Part shown: piece after piece, positions 9,530 through 16,828 of the stretch
Layout of the letters: the number at the start of each line of letters is the position of its first letter
Position numbering within the stretch: the first letter of the stretch is position 1
Virus record (IMG/VR): IMGVR_UViG_3300030451_003542
Location: 1 to 24,974 of that record
Length of the DNA stretch: 24,974 bases
Source: a virus
Reading direction: 5' to 3' (one strand)
Notes under the pieces: model-generated
Told to the model about the DNA's origin: nothing
What the model saw: only the letters and a program-made list of their open reading frames with translations
Databases searched by the model: none
Program-made: the position numbers and the translations under genes

Positions 9530-10813
9530 ATGAAAACATTTAAAACATATTTAGAAGAAGCAGCAGAAGATGTTGAAAACACTCTGTCTTCTTTAAAAAA
9601 GTTAAAGTATGATGCCGCAGTAAAAAAAGGAAATAATATAACTGTAAAAACTTCTGATGATCGCGTAGAAGTACTTCAAAAAATTGCAAAGCAACTGAAA
9701 GGTGAATACCAAGATGCAAGTCAGAAGGGTGTAACTTCCTCTGCTGGTCGTACTGTTTTACCAAATGGTGTAAAAATTGAAGCGAAGGATAGTGGTGAAA
9801 ATAAATTGAGAAATAAAGGTGACATTGCAGAAGGTTTACTTGGTCTTGCATTATACACAAAGTTCCAAAACAGAGTTGGTGATGACATCAAAGATATATC
9901 AGCTGCTGATTTTACAGCATCACTCAATAATCTTCGAAAGGAAAAAACTCAGGCAGTTAAAAAGGGAGCAGTGTTATATCAAAAAGTAAATATTAAAGAT
10001 TTACGAAAGAATCAAGATACAGTAAATCTGACAATTATGTTACCACAACCATCGTATGAAGATCTATTAGATAAGTCCAAAGATAAGTTGATTATGAAAT
10101 TAGCTAGATCTGCAATCAACTATGCTAATTCCAGAAATGTAACAAGATATGCAAAATTCTTATATGTAAATAATTCTAAAAATGTTATCGATGTAAAATC
10201 AGAAGGAACACTTGATCAAAGCGGAACAAAAGTCGATCTAAAAGTCGTCGTAGACGGTCGTCTCTTGAAGAACTTGAACATATCATTGAAGTCAGGAACG
10301 AGTACAAAACAGTTTGGTCAGGTATTTGGTTACACAGGAAAACATCATACTGCTCTGTGGAAAAACTTAGGTCTTAATTATAGCAGAAAACAAAAAGAAC
10401 ATGATAATATGCTTTTAGATGATGATGGTATTGTTAAGGCTTTTCATTATTCGTACAAATGGGCTGCCAATGAGATCAATAAAAGACTAAAGAATGATAA
10501 ACAAGAATTTGCAATGCTAAAAACCATTGCAAAGATGGTTAACTTTTATGCTACTCGAAATGAAAAAAATGTAAAACTGGTTCACTTTAAAGACTCTGGC
10601 GATTATAGTGTTTTATCATTCGATAAGCTTGAAGATAAGTTAAAGAAAATAAAATTAGAAGCAGTATATCGAGATCTTACTCTACCAACTATAGATATTC
10701 AAGATTCAAAAACAAAAAAGAAACTCATTTCAATTAAAGGCAAAAGAGAACTTCGAGCTTATCGTAATTTGATTCAAAAAGAAAAACTACTCGAAGAGCT
10801 TTTGGAAGTCTGA
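9530..10813 (+). CDS. putative PD-(D/E)xK nuclease with T4-like capsid-targeting N-terminus
   Basis: A 427-residue lysine-rich protein. Its first residues, MKTFKTYLEEA, align position for position with the T4 internal-protein capsid-targeting peptide (MKTYQEFIAEA), which the prohead protease gp21 removes after E10. Here L8-E9-E10|A11 satisfies the LxE|A rule. The body shows E101 in GDIAEGLLGLALYTKF, D236 in KVDLKVVVDG and S252-L253-K254 in LNISLKSG, consistent with a PD-(D/E)xK nuclease core, followed by TKQFGQVFGY. I infer a nuclease packaged inside the capsid and possibly injected with the DNA. The gene is strongly AT-rich, follows the 8722 gene by 10 bases, and overlaps the next gene by TGATG. 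Confidence 0.75.
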   Translation: MKTFKTYLEEAAEDVENTLSSLKKLKYDAAVKKGNNITVKTSDDRVEVLQKIAKQLKGEYQDASQKGVTSSAGRTVLPNGVKIEAKDSGENKLRNKGDIAEGLLGLALYTKFQNRVGDDIKDISAADFTASLNNLRKEKTQAVKKGAVLYQKVNIKDLRKNQDTVNLTIMLPQPSYEDLLDKSKDKLIMKLARSAINYANSRNVTRYAKFLYVNNSKNVIDVKSEGTLDQSGTKVDLKVVVDGRLLKNLNISLKSGTSTKQFGQVFGYTGKHHTALWKNLGLNYSRKQKEHDNMLLDDDGIVKAFHYSYKWAANEINKRLKNDKQEFAMLKTIAKMVNFYATRNEKNVKLVHFKDSGDYSVLSFDKLEDKLKKIKLEAVYRDLTLPTIDIQDSKTKKKLISIKGKRELRAYRNLIQKEKLLEELLEV

Positions 10814-12042
10814 TGATCAAATTCAAAACATTCATCGTCGAAGAAAAGAACACTCATATGACTCACATCGAGGAGCTGATGTTCCTTGGAGGTGTCGATG
10901 GTACTCGTCAAGCAATTAACTTCCTTCGAGATCTACGTGATATGCTGAAGGGTAACGCATCGTCTGCTGTCGACATCACTGTGAAGTGGGATGGAGCACC
11001 TGCTGTATTTGCCGGAGTCGATCCTGAAGATAAAAAGTTCTTCGTTGCAAAGAAGGGTCTATTCGCTAAAACTCCTAAGATGTATAAGTCGAATGCTGAT
11101 ATCGACAAAGAACTCAAAGGTGACCTCGCCAAGAAATTCAAAGTAGCACTTGCTGAATTTTCTAAGCTTGGAATTAAATCTGGTGTATACCAGGGCGATA
11201 TGATGTTTACCAAGGGTGATGTAAAAACAGAAACCATAGACGGTCAGAAATACTACACGTTTCAGCCAAACACAATCGTGTATGCGGTACCTGTAAACAC
11301 ACCACTCGGAAAGAAAATTGCAAGGGCGAAGATAGGTGTTGTATGGCACACAACATATACTGGCAGTACGATTCAAAATATGAGTGCATCATTCGGTAAA
11401 CAGATTGCCAGCAAGTTTAGAGCACCCTCTACTATCTGGATGGACGATGCCACGTATCGAGATGTGTCAGGAAAGGCACTATTCAGTAAAAAAGAGTCTG
11501 CTGCATTTGATAAACTCTTGAGCAAAGCAGGCAAGTTATTTCGTACAGTCGACGGTGATGCGTTTAGAATGATTGTGAGTGACGATGAGCTGCGTCAGAA
11601 GACGATGACTTTTGTCAATACATACATCCGCAGAGGATCGGACTTTCCTGCATCTGGTACGATGGCTACGGGACTTGTCCAGTACCTTAATGATTGGTAT
11701 CAGAAAGAGATTGACAAAAAGAAAACCGAGAAGGCAAAAGAGCAATGGAAGCAGCGCCGTGATAATCTCGTTCAAAAAGTAGTTATGAATAAGAGTCAAC
11801 TCATTGCTATGTTTGATCTCATGAAGGTTTTGGTAGATGCAAAGGGTATGGTCATAGCACAGTTTGATAAGACACAAGAGCTTGATACTGTATTGAGAAC
11901 AGCAAAGGGCTTTCAAGTAACACGCCAAGAGGGTTTTGTGGCGATTGACAAATTGAAGGGTGGTGCTGTTAAATTAGTAGACCGTTTAGAGTTTAGTAAG
12001 GCTAATTTCTCTCCGGAGATCATCAAGGGTTGGCAAAAATAA
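10813..12042 (+). CDS. ligase-like nucleotidyltransferase family protein (KxDG motif)
   Basis: A 409-residue protein. VKWDGAPAVFAG places K58 in a K-x-D-G motif, the adenylated-lysine motif I of ATP-dependent DNA and RNA ligases and capping enzymes. KSGVYQGDMMF (124-132) resembles motif III (F/YxGE, here GD). KKFFVAKKGLFAK lies between them. I do not see convincing motifs IV and V, so activity is uncertain. I think the family is catalogued as DUF6267, from memory. The N-terminus MIKFKTFIVEEK resembles the capsid-targeting peptide of T4 internal proteins, with F4, F7, I8 and E10 aligned, though the residue after E10 is E rather than A, G or S. The gene is coupled to the preceding nuclease-like gene through TGATG. 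A packaged nucleic-acid or cofactor-modifying enzyme is my inference. Confidence 0.75.
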   Translation: MIKFKTFIVEEKNTHMTHIEELMFLGGVDGTRQAINFLRDLRDMLKGNASSAVDITVKWDGAPAVFAGVDPEDKKFFVAKKGLFAKTPKMYKSNADIDKELKGDLAKKFKVALAEFSKLGIKSGVYQGDMMFTKGDVKTETIDGQKYYTFQPNTIVYAVPVNTPLGKKIARAKIGVVWHTTYTGSTIQNMSASFGKQIASKFRAPSTIWMDDATYRDVSGKALFSKKESAAFDKLLSKAGKLFRTVDGDAFRMIVSDDELRQKTMTFVNTYIRRGSDFPASGTMATGLVQYLNDWYQKEIDKKKTEKAKEQWKQRRDNLVQKVVMNKSQLIAMFDLMKVLVDAKGMVIAQFDKTQELDTVLRTAKGFQVTRQEGFVAIDKLKGGAVKLVDRLEFSKANFSPEIIKGWQK

Positions 12043-12106: not shown

Positions 12107-15100
12107 ATGTCAAAGATAGTCTTTACGTGGGGACGCATGAATCCCCCCACGGTCGGTCACCAAAAATTAGTAGACAAGGTCAAGTCCGAAGCTAAAAAAC
12201 TCGGTGCGATGGCTCATGTCTACATCTCGCACTCACAGGATAGTAAAAAGAATCCTCTCTCGTATGCGGACAAATTTGCTATTGCCCGAAAAGCTTTTGG
12301 TCCGATTGTCAAAAAATCAGAATCGAAGACCATAATTCAAGTCATGAAAGAGCTTGAAAAGATGGGACACACCGATGTGGTGCTTGTCGTCGGATCAGAT
12401 CGTGTAAGAGAATTTAAAACATTCCTGCCAAAATATAATGGTAAAGACTACAACTTCAAATCAATTAAGGTAGTGTCTGCTGGAGCAAGAGACCCTGATG
12501 CCGACGGTGTATCTGGTATGTCTGCATCTAAGATGCGCGCAGCTGCGCAGGCTGGCGATTATGCTTCATTTAAAAAAGGAACTCCAAAATCCATGTCGGA
12601 AAAAGAGAAAAAAGATATGTATGATAAAATTCGTTCAGTCATGGAAAAAGAAACAAACGAGTCCATCGAATGGGATGACAGTGACTTCGAGTTTACTGAT
12701 GATGAACTTGATGCATTTATTGAAATGACTGACTTGGAAGCTCTCGAGGAAGTAGTAGAGATTGACGAGGAGTATGGTGAATATCTCGAATTGCTTGGAG
12801 AAGAACGCAAACCTCTTACAGTACAGCAGAGAATGGCAATCGGCCGACGTATGAAGAGACTTGCTCCCCGTATCTCTCGCATGCGTAAAATACGAATGAA
12901 GAGAATGGCTGATAGACCGAGACTAGAGAAAAGAGCTCGTAAAGCTGCAATTAAGTTATTAAGAAAAAGATTTGCTGGTAAACAAGGTGAAAATTATGCA
13001 TCGTTGACACCTGCCGCAAAGATGCAAGTGGACAGGGTTATCCAGAAAAAAATGGCGGCGGTCGGCAGGATCTCCAAACGTCTTTTACCAAAAGTACGGA
13101 AGGCAGAGATGGAACGATTGAAGAATTTAAGAAAAGGTAAGTCTGAACCCACCAAAAAAGCGGTTCGTGAAGAATTCATCTGGGAAGAGGAAGACGAAAA
13201 AACAAACCAAAAGCTGATTACAATTTTAAGACAAGCCTTTACTGATCCTAAAGAAAGAAATCTTGTCATTCGAGCTTTAAAGGGTGGCGAAAGGTCACTA
13301 AAAAATCCAAAACTTCGGCCATTTGTGCTGAAACTATTAACACGACTGCTTGATGCCACACAAGATGATCCCAGCATGCTAGCGAAGATGAGAGACAAGC
13401 TACGAAGAATGAGTCAGGCTGACAATTTAAAGGAAAGAGAAGATCCTGATATCGGTCACCGTAAGGGTAGCCAACCAGCGCAGTATCATACCGGATTGAG
13501 TAAGTCTACTAAAAAAAGGCGTGATGCTCATTTTAGAAAATATGCTGAGAAACCTGGTGATAAAAATAAGAAAGACTCAGATGCGAACTACAAACCTGCT
13601 CCAGGCGATGCCAGGGCAAAAACAAAGCCGTCAATTCACACAAAGAAATACAAGCAAATGTATGGCGAAGATGATCCATGTTGGGATACTCACAAACAAG
13701 TGGGTATGAAAAAGAAAGGAAATCGTATGGTCCCGAATTGTGTACCAAAAGAAGATTTAAATGCATCATTCGAGAAATTTCTCGAAGAAGAATATATTGA
13801 AGAAAAGATTGCGGGTCTTGTCAAAAAATCAGAGAAGTCAGGCATCCCATACGGCATCCTCAAACAGGTGTATAACCGAGGCATGGCTGCGTGGAAGTCG
13901 GGCCACAGACCGGGTGCAACACCACAGCAGTGGGCGTTTGCTCGAGTTAACTCTTTCATCACCAAAGGATCTGGTACATGGGGTAAGGCCGATAAGGATC
14001 TTGCCGCAAAGGTACGCGGATCGAAAGCTCGTAAGGAATCACTTGACAAAGAGGATGAGCCAAAGGTTAAAGAAATCATCAAGAAGTTGAAGGGTGCAAG
14101 TAAGGCTCATGCTGGTCAAGCGAAAGACTTAGAAAAGGCCGTAAAAGAAGATGCGGTTAAAGATGCAAAAGATGACATTAAACGAGAAAAAGAAATTGAT
14201 AAGCGTAAGCATGATGCGATGCTTGATAGAGCTCGGTTACAGAAAGCGAAGATGAAAAACCGAATGACGGAAGCGGAGCATAGCGACGAAATCGAAGTTG
14301 ACGGTTATCAGACAAAGAACTTTCATATGTGTGGCTCGGCTCAAAAGGTCATGAAGAAACTTGCAGGCAAGGAGGGAGCCAAGGAACTCACTCAGATGCA
14401 AGACAAGTTTTACGGTCTTGAAAAGCAGATTATGAACAATGGATCCGCAGATAAAAAACAAAAAGCAACGGCACGTATGATGCATGACCGAATCATGGCA
14501 AAGGCAAAGCAGGTCGGACTCGACGATGAGATTGGCGGATACATGAAGATGCACATTGATTCTATCGAGAAGGGCAAACCGAAGTTAGGGTTTGGTCGTA
14601 CAGATATTAAGGAATCGATTGACGAAAAGTTTGAATCGCTTTTTCTTGAAGAGCCAAGAGTGCCAAGAAAGCCGGGGCAGCCGGCTGGCTCTGATAAACA
14701 CTCCGATCTTTACACAGACGAAAATCCAAAAGATACAATTCACGGACTGAAATTTGCTACTGTGAAGGATGCGGAAGCAAGTGTAAAAAAGATAAAATCG
14801 TCAGGACGTAAACACGCACACAAAATTCAAGCAGCGATTGCTATGGAACAGAGAGCAAGAGTTGCCGGTAAGAAAAGTGCGGCTGCTGTCTATCGTGCAT
14901 ACATAAATGCAATGAAAAAGAAAACGAAACAGATGCGGAAAGAAGAGTATGGTGCCGGCGAGGAGGGCACAGATAAACTTGTGAAGAAATACAAAAAAGA
15001 TACTCCCAATGAAGATTGCACATGCTTCGATCATGTTATCTCCGAGGCTGAGTATAAAGGGCGTAAGGTCACTCTCAACGATCCGATACGGTCAAACGAC

Positions 15101-15313
15101 GGTAAGAAAAAATTCTATGTATATGTGAAAAATGAAAAGGGTAATATTGTAAAGGTCGGATTCGGAGATCCAAATATGGAGATCAAACGAGACGATCCAG
15201 GCCGCCGTAAAAACTTTAGGGCACGTCACAACTGTGATAATCCAGGACCAAAATGGAAAGCAAGGTACTGGAGTTGTTATCAGTGGCGAGCCGGTGCGAA
15301 GGTTGATAACTGA
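12107..15313 (+). CDS. giant multidomain protein with N-terminal nucleotidylyltransferase; possible polyprotein
   Basis: A 1068-residue protein. Residues 1-170 form a cytidylyltransferase-like Rossmann domain: GRMNPPTVGH (T15-x-G17-H18, the HxGH-type motif), VVLVVGSDRV, and GMSASKMR (S139-R144), equivalent to the ISxxxxR motif. Acidic linkers then alternate with very basic modules: a K/R-rich module (about 235-350), a STKKRRDAHFRKYAEKPGD module (about 455-520), a CWDTHKQVGMKKKGNRMVPN zinc-finger-sized piece (about 527-545), a GIPYGILKQVYNRGM...GHRPGATPQQW module (579-640), a CGSAQKVMKKLAG helical module (about 740-830), a KPGQPAGSDKHSDLYTDENP module (about 855-950) and a C-terminal RARHNCDNPGPKWKARYW module. 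Linkers carry CTS-like or LxE-like sites: FEKFLEEE (555-562), FESLFLEEP (842-850), ISEA (978-981), MTEA (720-723). Several modules recur in other marine phage proteins, from memory. GAGGAG precedes the ATG. Confidence 0.85.
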   Translation: MSKIVFTWGRMNPPTVGHQKLVDKVKSEAKKLGAMAHVYISHSQDSKKNPLSYADKFAIARKAFGPIVKKSESKTIIQVMKELEKMGHTDVVLVVGSDRVREFKTFLPKYNGKDYNFKSIKVVSAGARDPDADGVSGMSASKMRAAAQAGDYASFKKGTPKSMSEKEKKDMYDKIRSVMEKETNESIEWDDSDFEFTDDELDAFIEMTDLEALEEVVEIDEEYGEYLELLGEERKPLTVQQRMAIGRRMKRLAPRISRMRKIRMKRMADRPRLEKRARKAAIKLLRKRFAGKQGENYASLTPAAKMQVDRVIQKKMAAVGRISKRLLPKVRKAEMERLKNLRKGKSEPTKKAVREEFIWEEEDEKTNQKLITILRQAFTDPKERNLVIRALKGGERSLKNPKLRPFVLKLLTRLLDATQDDPSMLAKMRDKLRRMSQADNLKEREDPDIGHRKGSQPAQYHTGLSKSTKKRRDAHFRKYAEKPGDKNKKDSDANYKPAPGDARAKTKPSIHTKKYKQMYGEDDPCWDTHKQVGMKKKGNRMVPNCVPKEDLNASFEKFLEEEYIEEKIAGLVKKSEKSGIPYGILKQVYNRGMAAWKSGHRPGATPQQWAFARVNSFITKGSGTWGKADKDLAAKVRGSKARKESLDKEDEPKVKEIIKKLKGASKAHAGQAKDLEKAVKEDAVKDAKDDIKREKEIDKRKHDAMLDRARLQKAKMKNRMTEAEHSDEIEVDGYQTKNFHMCGSAQKVMKKLAGKEGAKELTQMQDKFYGLEKQIMNNGSADKKQKATARMMHDRIMAKAKQVGLDDEIGGYMKMHIDSIEKGKPKLGFGRTDIKESIDEKFESLFLEEPRVPRKPGQPAGSDKHSDLYTDENPKDTIHGLKFATVKDAEASVKKIKSSGRKHAHKIQAAIAMEQRARVAGKKSAAAVYRAYINAMKKKTKQMRKEEYGAGEEGTDKLVKKYKKDTPNEDCTCFDHVISEAEYKGRKVTLNDPIRSNDGKKKFYVYVKNEKGNIVKVGFGDPNMEIKRDDPGRRKNFRARHNCDNPGPKWKARYWSCYQWRAGAKVDN

Positions 15314-15762
15314 TGTTTGAGTATAAGTGTACCATACTTAGAGTTGTGGATGGCGATACAGTCGATGTTGATATCGATTTGGGGTTTGGTGTATGGATGC
15401 GTAAACAGCGCATTCGTCTCTATGGTATTGATACACCAGAGTCACGTACACGTGATAAAGAGGAAAAGAAGTTTGGGCTACTTGCGAAGCAATATGTTGA
15501 AGGATTTCTTAAAAAAGGATCTACCGCCACTTTGGTCACCGAAAAAGACGGTAAAGGAAAGTTTGGCAGGATTCTTGGCAAGTTTCAGGTCTTTGATGCA
15601 AAGACAGACAGAGCAACTTTCCTACATGAATTAATGATTCGAGATCACATGGCTGTCGAGTACATGGGTCAGTCAAAGGAAGATATCGCCGAAGAACATC
15701 TAATGAACAGGCGTCGGATAAAAGAGAGTGGATGTTATAACGAAATGTTAAATTATAAATAA
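15313..15762 (+). CDS. staphylococcal-nuclease homologue (thermonuclease)
   Basis: A calcium-dependent endonuclease of DNA and RNA of the SNase family, 149 residues, about the size of one SNase domain with no signal peptide. VVDGDTVDVDIDLGFG is the Ca-binding first strand region. R35 and E43 in RIRLYGIDTPES match the catalytic R35 and E43 of S. aureus nuclease. R86 in GKFGRILGKF matches R87. The C-terminal half is the usual helical cap. All catalytic residues are present, so activity is likely. Its start overlaps the stop of the giant gene by one base, so it is co-translated with a late-type gene rather than with the early genes. With no secretion signal it should act in the cytoplasm or in the virion. 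Degradation of host nucleic acid or processing of phage DNA are both possible. Confidence 0.9.
   Translation: MFEYKCTILRVVDGDTVDVDIDLGFGVWMRKQRIRLYGIDTPESRTRDKEEKKFGLLAKQYVEGFLKKGSTATLVTEKDGKGKFGRILGKFQVFDAKTDRATFLHELMIRDHMAVEYMGQSKEDIAEEHLMNRRRIKESGCYNEMLNYK
15754..15761 (+). promoter_or_regulatory. T4-type late promoter box before the EF-hand modular gene
   Basis: A perfect TATAAATA overlapping the stop codon of the SNase gene, 31 bases before the ATG at 15793. The downstream bases ATAAAAAAC repeat the extended core seen at 12049. The predicted start is near 15768, and a GAGGACAAG ribosome-binding region follows. Confidence 0.7.
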
Positions 15763-16409: not shown

Positions 16410-16586
16410 ATGATGTCCTTTAAAGAATATATGCTTGAAGAAGCAATGTCAGATGCTCAAATGAAAAAGCGTGAGGAGATAGTTAAGTCCCTGAAAAAGA
16501 AAATGGGTGACTTTAAAAAAAGATATGGTGATCGAGCAAAAGATGTGATGTATGCAACTGCTACTAAAATGGCGATGAAAACATGA
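16410..16586 (+). CDS. small modular protein with capsid-targeting-like N-terminus
   Basis: A 58-residue protein (57 if the second ATG at 16413 is used). The N-terminus SFKEYMLEEAMSD resembles the T4 internal-protein capsid-targeting peptide and ends in L-E-E|A, a gp21-type cleavage site. After cleavage about 46 residues would remain, composed of a basic helical module with KKREEIVKSLKKKMGDFKKR and YGDRAKDVMYATATKMAMK. I recall that this YGD...VMYATATK module occurs in many marine phage proteins, usually fused to others; here it is almost free-standing. The stop overlaps the next ATG (ATGA). Clean spacing and the recognisable module make it a convincing gene despite its size. It may be a small internal capsid protein. 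Confidence 0.75.
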   Translation: MMSFKEYMLEEAMSDAQMKKREEIVKSLKKKMGDFKKRYGDRAKDVMYATATKMAMKT

Positions 16587-16828
16587 GTTATGCAAGAGTT
16601 ATAAAAACACTACACCGAATTGAAGAAGGTGGTCATACCGATGTAGCCTCTATGAAAAATAAAGTAGAGATGGCGAGTAAGGCTATAGCGATTATGAAAA
16701 CCGAGCTAGACAAGCTAGGAGATGATGATTCATTACCTAGTTGGTGGACAAATAAAGTGGCTGTTGCCGTCAGTAATCTAGATAGCATGGCTGATTACCT
16801 AGACGTCAAAGTCGAGGATAATAAATAA
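16583..16828 (+). CDS. small modular protein, candidate internal virion protein
   Basis: An 81-residue protein coupled to the previous gene by ATGA. The N-terminus (MSYARVIKTLHRIEEGGHTD) is helical and ends in I-E-E|G, which fits the gp21-type rule (L/I)xE|(A/G/S). The rest is a helical module GGHTDVASMKNKVEMAS...LPSWWTNKVAVAVSNLDSM that I recall as a recurring piece of marine phage proteins; the SWWTNK motif is its hallmark. Function is unknown. Position next to the 16410 gene, with the same architecture of short leader plus one module, suggests that both are processed during head maturation. Confidence 0.75.
   Translation: MSYARVIKTLHRIEEGGHTDVASMKNKVEMASKAIAIMKTELDKLGDDDSLPSWWTNKVAVAVSNLDSMADYLDVKVEDNK
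16820..16827 (+). promoter_or_regulatory. late promoter box (AATAAATA) before the structural genes
   Basis: AATAAATA fits the NATAAATA form reported for late promoters of marine T4-like phages. It overlaps the stop of the preceding gene and lies 59 bases before the ATG at 16887. It lacks the first T of the T4 consensus, so confidence is moderate. Confidence 0.45.

Follow-up and report, generated by a model that had tools for sequence, protein, structure and literature searches.

We found that a phage protein of 1068 amino acids is, as comparison with its relatives strongly supports, a chain of leader-plus-module units. We consider it likely that this chain is a multi-leader head-cargo polyprotein, loaded and then cut in a variation on T4 internal-protein processing. 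The window, a virus record of 24,974 bases, holds the reading frame at 12107..15313 (plus strand, as are the other mapped features below), which is open throughout. An earlier note on this DNA had proposed such a polyprotein from five linker strings, and both the frame and the strings proved real, each string lying at the residues quoted for it. A frame error or assembly artefact behind the long frame was ruled out because full-length orthologues occur in other contigs; orthologues were found in L002-L008. The window reads like a T4-like marine myovirus. By eye, a cluster of unknown genes is flanked by DNA polymerase, RecA/UvsX-like, helicase, primase and ThyX-like genes, and the best annotated matches were to Methylophilales phage Melnitz, Pelagibacter phage HTVC008M, phage C48C1 and cyanophages (assigned to Kyanoviridae in the records that state it).

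Comparison with relatives divided the protein into modules A (nucleotidylyltransferase, NTase), B, C, D, E, F (DUF5824), G, H, I and K. Pfam recognized a cytidylyltransferase-like domain and DUF5824, and PHROGs families cover most of the other parts. Module A (residues 1-182, 12107..12652) matched CTP_transf_like (PF01467) with 26.2 bits against a cut-off of 21, and NadD/PPAT structures headed its fold matches (Foldseek 8aii, E 1.4e-4). In contrast to many relatives, module A here has no N-terminal leader. Directly after the NTase in many relatives, such as L047 (EFRNHLELETVSE), a conserved F-x-N-H-[IL]-x-L..VSE precedes the next domain, and this element may be a variant leader whose cut site is displaced.

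Module B (233-343, 12803..13135) is basic and helical, and module C (364-440, 13196..13426), helical in the model, was found in 5 loci. Profile mapping placed the basic module D (441-522, 13427..13672) and the short PCWDTHKQVG..PNCVP motif of module E (523-549, 13673..13753). The C-terminal end of module D reads KFKQM(F/Y)GE in many relatives; this string has leader spacing, and the following module often begins immediately after it. It may mark a cut site or belong to the domain, and at low thresholds it swamped a leader weight matrix. Module F (566-640, 13802..14026) matched DUF5824 (PF19141) over residues 574-631 with 60.4 bits against a cut-off of 25 (E 2.6e-16). It is followed by a segment, G (641-716, 14027..14254), modeled as charged and helical, by module H (725-832, 14279..14602; profile mapping and orthologue alignment), and by module I (851-948, 14657..14950), which in P-TIM68 has its own gene adjoining the major capsid gene. 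Module K (982-1068, 15050..15310) was modeled as a compact fold with a pLDDT of 90. The AlphaFold2 model of the whole chain was weak (15 sequences, mean pLDDT 59), and the linker and leader sites lie in or beside its segments below pLDDT 50 (184-238, 342-355, 499-566, 709-749, 824-883 and 946-987). Despite its pLDDT, module K found no match in fold and sequence searches of the PDB, and no DNA-binding fold was identified among the modules. Several of the predicted pieces are basic (pI 9.6-11.8), as the earlier note had it. However, its description of the cargo as small pieces does not extend to a relative in which an entire kinase forms one unit. Because module K has no PDB match and what remains is charge, nucleic-acid binding by the small pieces is only a guess.

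The leader pattern [FYW]xx[FYWLMH][ILVMF]xE, our own regular expression with some latitude per position, matched the window protein three times (226-232, 555-561 and 842-848), always between modules, against 0.20 in composition-preserving shuffles (P=0.0008). The match between A and B, YLELLGE|E (226-233, 12782..12805), was missing from the list of linker sites drawn up earlier. In the orthologue alignment DEEYGEYLELLGEE aligns with DEEFEEYIEE and DEEFADYLEE, and DEEFEEYLEE is also found among orthologues. The two other full leaders, NASFEKFLEEE (552-562, 13760..13792) and EKFESLFLEEP (840-850, 14624..14656), were on that list and are recovered by pattern and by orthologue alignment; the proline at P1' of the latter, at the H/I site, is unusual. 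Three further listed sites have only the cleavage part of the leader, hydrophobic-x-E. They are EEFIWEEE (355-362, 13169..13192), which is kept in L005 and altered in L002, L003 and L006; residues 719-724 in KNRMTEAE (717-724, 14255..14278), with hydrophobic-x-E|A; and residues 977-982, overlapping the site CTCFDHVISE|A (972-981, 15020..15049). The protein itself starts MSKIVFTWGRMNPP, without a T4 leader, and matches the pattern only internally (226, 555, 842); N-terminal leaders are present in its window neighbours and in NTases of relatives. Internal translation starts were rejected because the internal leaders of the window hold no Met.

T4 leader spacing (aromatic residues at 4 and 7, aliphatic at 8, E at 10) is found in three neighbours: a phrog_3560 protein starting MKTFKTYLEE (9530..10813), a Pfam DUF6267 protein starting MIKFKTFIVE (10813..12042) and a small protein starting MMSFKEYMLE (16410..16586). 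FEKFLEE and FESLFLEE, which the earlier note had likened to the leaders of these neighbours, both lie at matches to the leader pattern. The genes at 16410 and at 16583..16828, the second with IEE|GGHTDVASM, had been taken for single modules, and homologues of both are indeed fused into chains elsewhere, the second as LTE|NGHTDVASM and similar. The DUF6267 protein contains KWDG, within KWDGAPAVF, which recalls the KxDG motif of nucleic-acid ligases; a PDB sequence search with this protein found no relative. Directly downstream of the long frame, 15313-15762 encodes a small protein that by eye reads like a staphylococcal-nuclease homologue and has no leader.

Modules were mapped across 207 loci by iterative profile search. 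As ORFs of a single module, K was found 96 times, B 55 times and F 46 times, besides many fused forms, and about 70 module arrangements were counted, truncated ones included. In C48C1, B (MLSFKQFVSE), DUF5824 (MITFKKYLEE) and K (MKKFKQYIDE) are separate genes, and Melnitz has B alone, starting MKKFSELTSE. Melnitz (EXVC044M) and HTVC008M, both in culture, each encode an NTase fused into a chain. Thus B, F, K, I and other units stand alone in relatives, as the units of a polyprotein should be able to do. A zeta-toxin/AAA_33-like kinase is likewise a separate gene in L049 and L051 (MDKFKDFIDE|GVNDPGIFK), and in a relative's chain fragment (L145:3-2225) the complete kinase follows an internal leader, FESYLKE|GVNDPAIFK, with module F on one side and K on the other.

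The borders between modules were uniform. Summed over eight module borders, hydrophobic-x-E stood at 132 of 145 fused borders (91%), where shuffles gave about 59 and 8-14% of random 8-mers contained it, and at 189 of 220 non-fused borders, compared with about 79. Before module K it was found in 25/25 fused and 64/65 separate forms, with P1' mostly A or S, and before fused K it was kept even where the aromatic leader is absent. Could the borders be ordinary acidic flexible linkers, in which hydrophobic-x-E follows from composition and the leader resemblance is chance? The linkers are rich in Glu, and [LIVMF]xE by itself shows no enrichment, with 23 sites in the window protein and 17.8 in its shuffles. 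Full leader spacing occurs in only three window linkers, and the rest carry hydrophobic-x-E, a motif that acidic linkers often contain; this counts against the polyprotein reading. We nevertheless regard chance as extremely improbable, since the shuffles preserve composition and fall far below the counts of both leaders and borders, and since the same linker recurs ahead of different modules.

This recurrence was seen in the orthologue alignment, which shows one linker, SIDEKFES..E, conserved in front of modules that are exchanged. In the window and in L002-L004, SIDEKFESLFLEE precedes module I. In L006, SIDEKFESMLSE occupies the position of the 840-850 leader and is followed by a different module; there SIDEKFESMLSES is followed by an unrelated module, and the L005 counterpart is SVNEKFENMLSEQ. 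The homologue comparison that the earlier note had proposed as a check therefore shows module order varying while linker sites are kept. Together with the separate counterparts, the arrangements and the border counts, it upholds the note's chain of leaders and modules.

We also weighed whether internal leaders and LxE borders are functionless relics of recent fusion, the chain perhaps being an ordinary cytoplasmic protein. In some fusions the former start Met has indeed survived (L084 MKSFSEY, L086 MKTFKEY and L099 MKDFSSF). However, the ten residues of the K site up to Glu980/Ala981 have 5 and 6 codon changes relative to L002 and L004, all of them synonymous, whereas the 23-codon linker just upstream has 5/14 and 6/12 synonymous/nonsynonymous changes in the same comparisons. 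The same codon comparison of KNRMTEAE gave 4 synonymous and 0 nonsynonymous changes relative to both L003 and L004, and 3/2 relative to L002. NASFEKFLEEE aligns with AAFNNFMAEQ in orthologues (FNNFMAE in L005 and L006), so that the pattern is held though the letters have diverged. Given this and the retention of hydrophobic-x-E at fused borders, we consider relics very unlikely.

The leader was also counted at the starts of all ORFs of at least 120 amino acids in the loci. The strict form was found in 180 of 1945, whereas shuffles gave 5.6, and it was present once among 444 minus-strand ORFs. These counts indicate that in these phages the leader is a genuine N-terminal signal and that it is widespread. 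DUF6267 and P-loop proteins, among others, carry it as well. Of the module ORFs in which the NTase does not come first, 191/263 had a leader-like start by a loose seed, and a lower share had the strict T4 pattern (F alone 24/47, K alone 17/96, B alone 4/55). NTase-first proteins contained an internal leader in 16/59 cases when they had no N-terminal leader and in 4/61 when they had one (p=0.003, inflated by related sequences), as expected if internal leaders replace the N-terminal one. Counts across relatives include related sequences, and the p-values are optimistic for that reason.

These leaders invite a third explanation, in which the chain is loaded through its internal leaders and stays uncut as one multidomain internal protein, the repeated leaders raising avidity for the core. 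According to passages of PMC9026906, T4 genetics separates targeting, which depends on leader residues 4 and 7, from processing, which residues 8 and 10 allow and D at 10 blocks. Loading without cutting is therefore conceivable, and it would suit a chain that has no N-terminal leader, as well as the leader-like SFKDYLKD, with Asp at position 10, at the C termini of chains in L049, L051 and L091. At N-terminal leaders position 10 was E 190 times and D 4 times. A loose family-wide search for leaders in linkers gave E and D at position 10 nearly equally often (35 and 30), which counts against the polyprotein reading; the comparison became informative only once matches inside two folded domains had been removed by eye. 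In the leader counts, TNYLSFVAE matches were set aside as part of another small domain between A and D. Against an uncut chain, the processing residues are kept, hydrophobic-x-E precedes fused K without exception with A or S often next, and avidity would not require separate and fused forms to have the same kind of border. We therefore hold an uncut chain to be unlikely, though less so than relics. Loading and cutting remains the best explanation because the processing residues are conserved beyond the targeting ones.

The polyprotein reading would run as follows. The chain would have arisen by fusion of once-separate leader-plus-module genes. Internal leaders of the T4 capsid-targeting type would bring it into the prohead core, where the phage's T4 gp21-type (S77) prohead protease would cut after Glu in hydrophobic-x-Glu at the linkers. 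Up to seven pieces of 10-26 kDa (NTase, B, C-D-E, F-G, H, I and K) would be freed, would stay with the DNA and would probably be ejected into the host. The pieces predicted for the window chain are 1-232 (26.1 kDa), 233-361 (15.3), 362-561 (23.1), 562-722 (18.1), 723-849 (14.4), 850-980 (14.6) and 981-1068 (10.4). Since relatives shuffle modules and keep the tags, the chain probably enters the head in one piece and is then divided into several proteins; loading, cleavage, ejection and the functions of the pieces are what we infer from these patterns. The T4-type prohead protease (PF03420) was found in 10 distinct records of relatives: in 8/13 of a first set, including every record above 140 kb, and in 3/17 of a second set that overlapped the first, one of these three being the 39-kb contig of orthologue L005. 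The S77 (gp21-type) protease expected for T4-type cargo was thus found in relatives only, and the 24,974-base fragment contained no prohead protease gene. In the L005 contig LLGE|A is found in the capsid protein and FITE|A in the protease, each where processing occurs in T4 relatives, and by eye we take these to be probable processing sites.

The internal proteins IPI-III and Alt of T4, with their capsid-targeting sequence and gp21, share with this system the leader spacing, the type of cleavage site, the basic cargo and the S77 protease (here in relatives). However, each T4 internal protein has one N-terminal leader and one mature product, whereas the window chain has repeated internal leaders and several modules. 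We file the window protein outside the strict T4 internal-protein class, because it has no N-terminal leader of its own, as one that probably works like such a protein. In SPN3US (gp53 and gp54) and in 201phi2-1, passages of PMC10052503 and PMC9026906 describe several cuts after Glu per head protein, as predicted for the window. There the extra cuts break up the propeptide of one mature protein, the SPN3US motif is AxE, and those passages describe no chain of modules with separate-gene counterparts, whereas the window protein is such a chain.

Animal RNA viruses also make several units from one translation product with a virus protease. The window chain would differ in being DNA phage head cargo, in having its protease in trans and in having units that also occur as separate genes. 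We found no description of an ejected-head-cargo polyprotein of a tailed phage in the open-access library searched, and this one, if confirmed, would be the first known to us. With somewhat less assurance than for the window chain itself, we lean towards the view that internal leaders act as both address and cut site and that marine T4-like phages use them to build modular head-cargo polyproteins, one product giving several ejected proteins in equal numbers. Modules, enzymes included, could then be gained, lost and moved between genes and chains. If this is right, the leaders, which are found on NTases, kinases, DUF6267 proteins and numerous small proteins of unknown kind, also offer a sequence rule for the possible head contents of marine T4-like phages. 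Which proteins such phages inject in the ocean, and what those proteins do, could then be tested directly. Internal tags may also be suggested for multi-protein delivery by phage heads.

Virion proteomes bear on the NTase. The virion cytidylyltransferases of S-CREM2 and S-SZBM1 (PMC10665884, PMC9146016) are orthologous NTases with a T4-type leader, which we read as MKNFSSFLTE and MRFRQFIIE, and both were detected in purified virions. They are separate proteins of 286 and 362 amino acids, whereas the window NTase heads a module chain, and this counts against the polyprotein reading. In S-CREM2, strict-leader proteins were detected in virions in 4/5 cases, compared with 48/213 of the others (p=0.012). 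Leaders were seen on several virion-detected proteins of this phage (OR473000, L221; gp6, gp12, gp13 and gp14), including a SAM hydrolase (MKDFDSFLEE), a kinase (MKRFDAFLTE), a small protein (MKDLHSFLTE) and Cas9. In Cas9, RFASFMAE lies at about residue 18-25, so the gene may really start farther downstream than annotated, or the leader may be internal.
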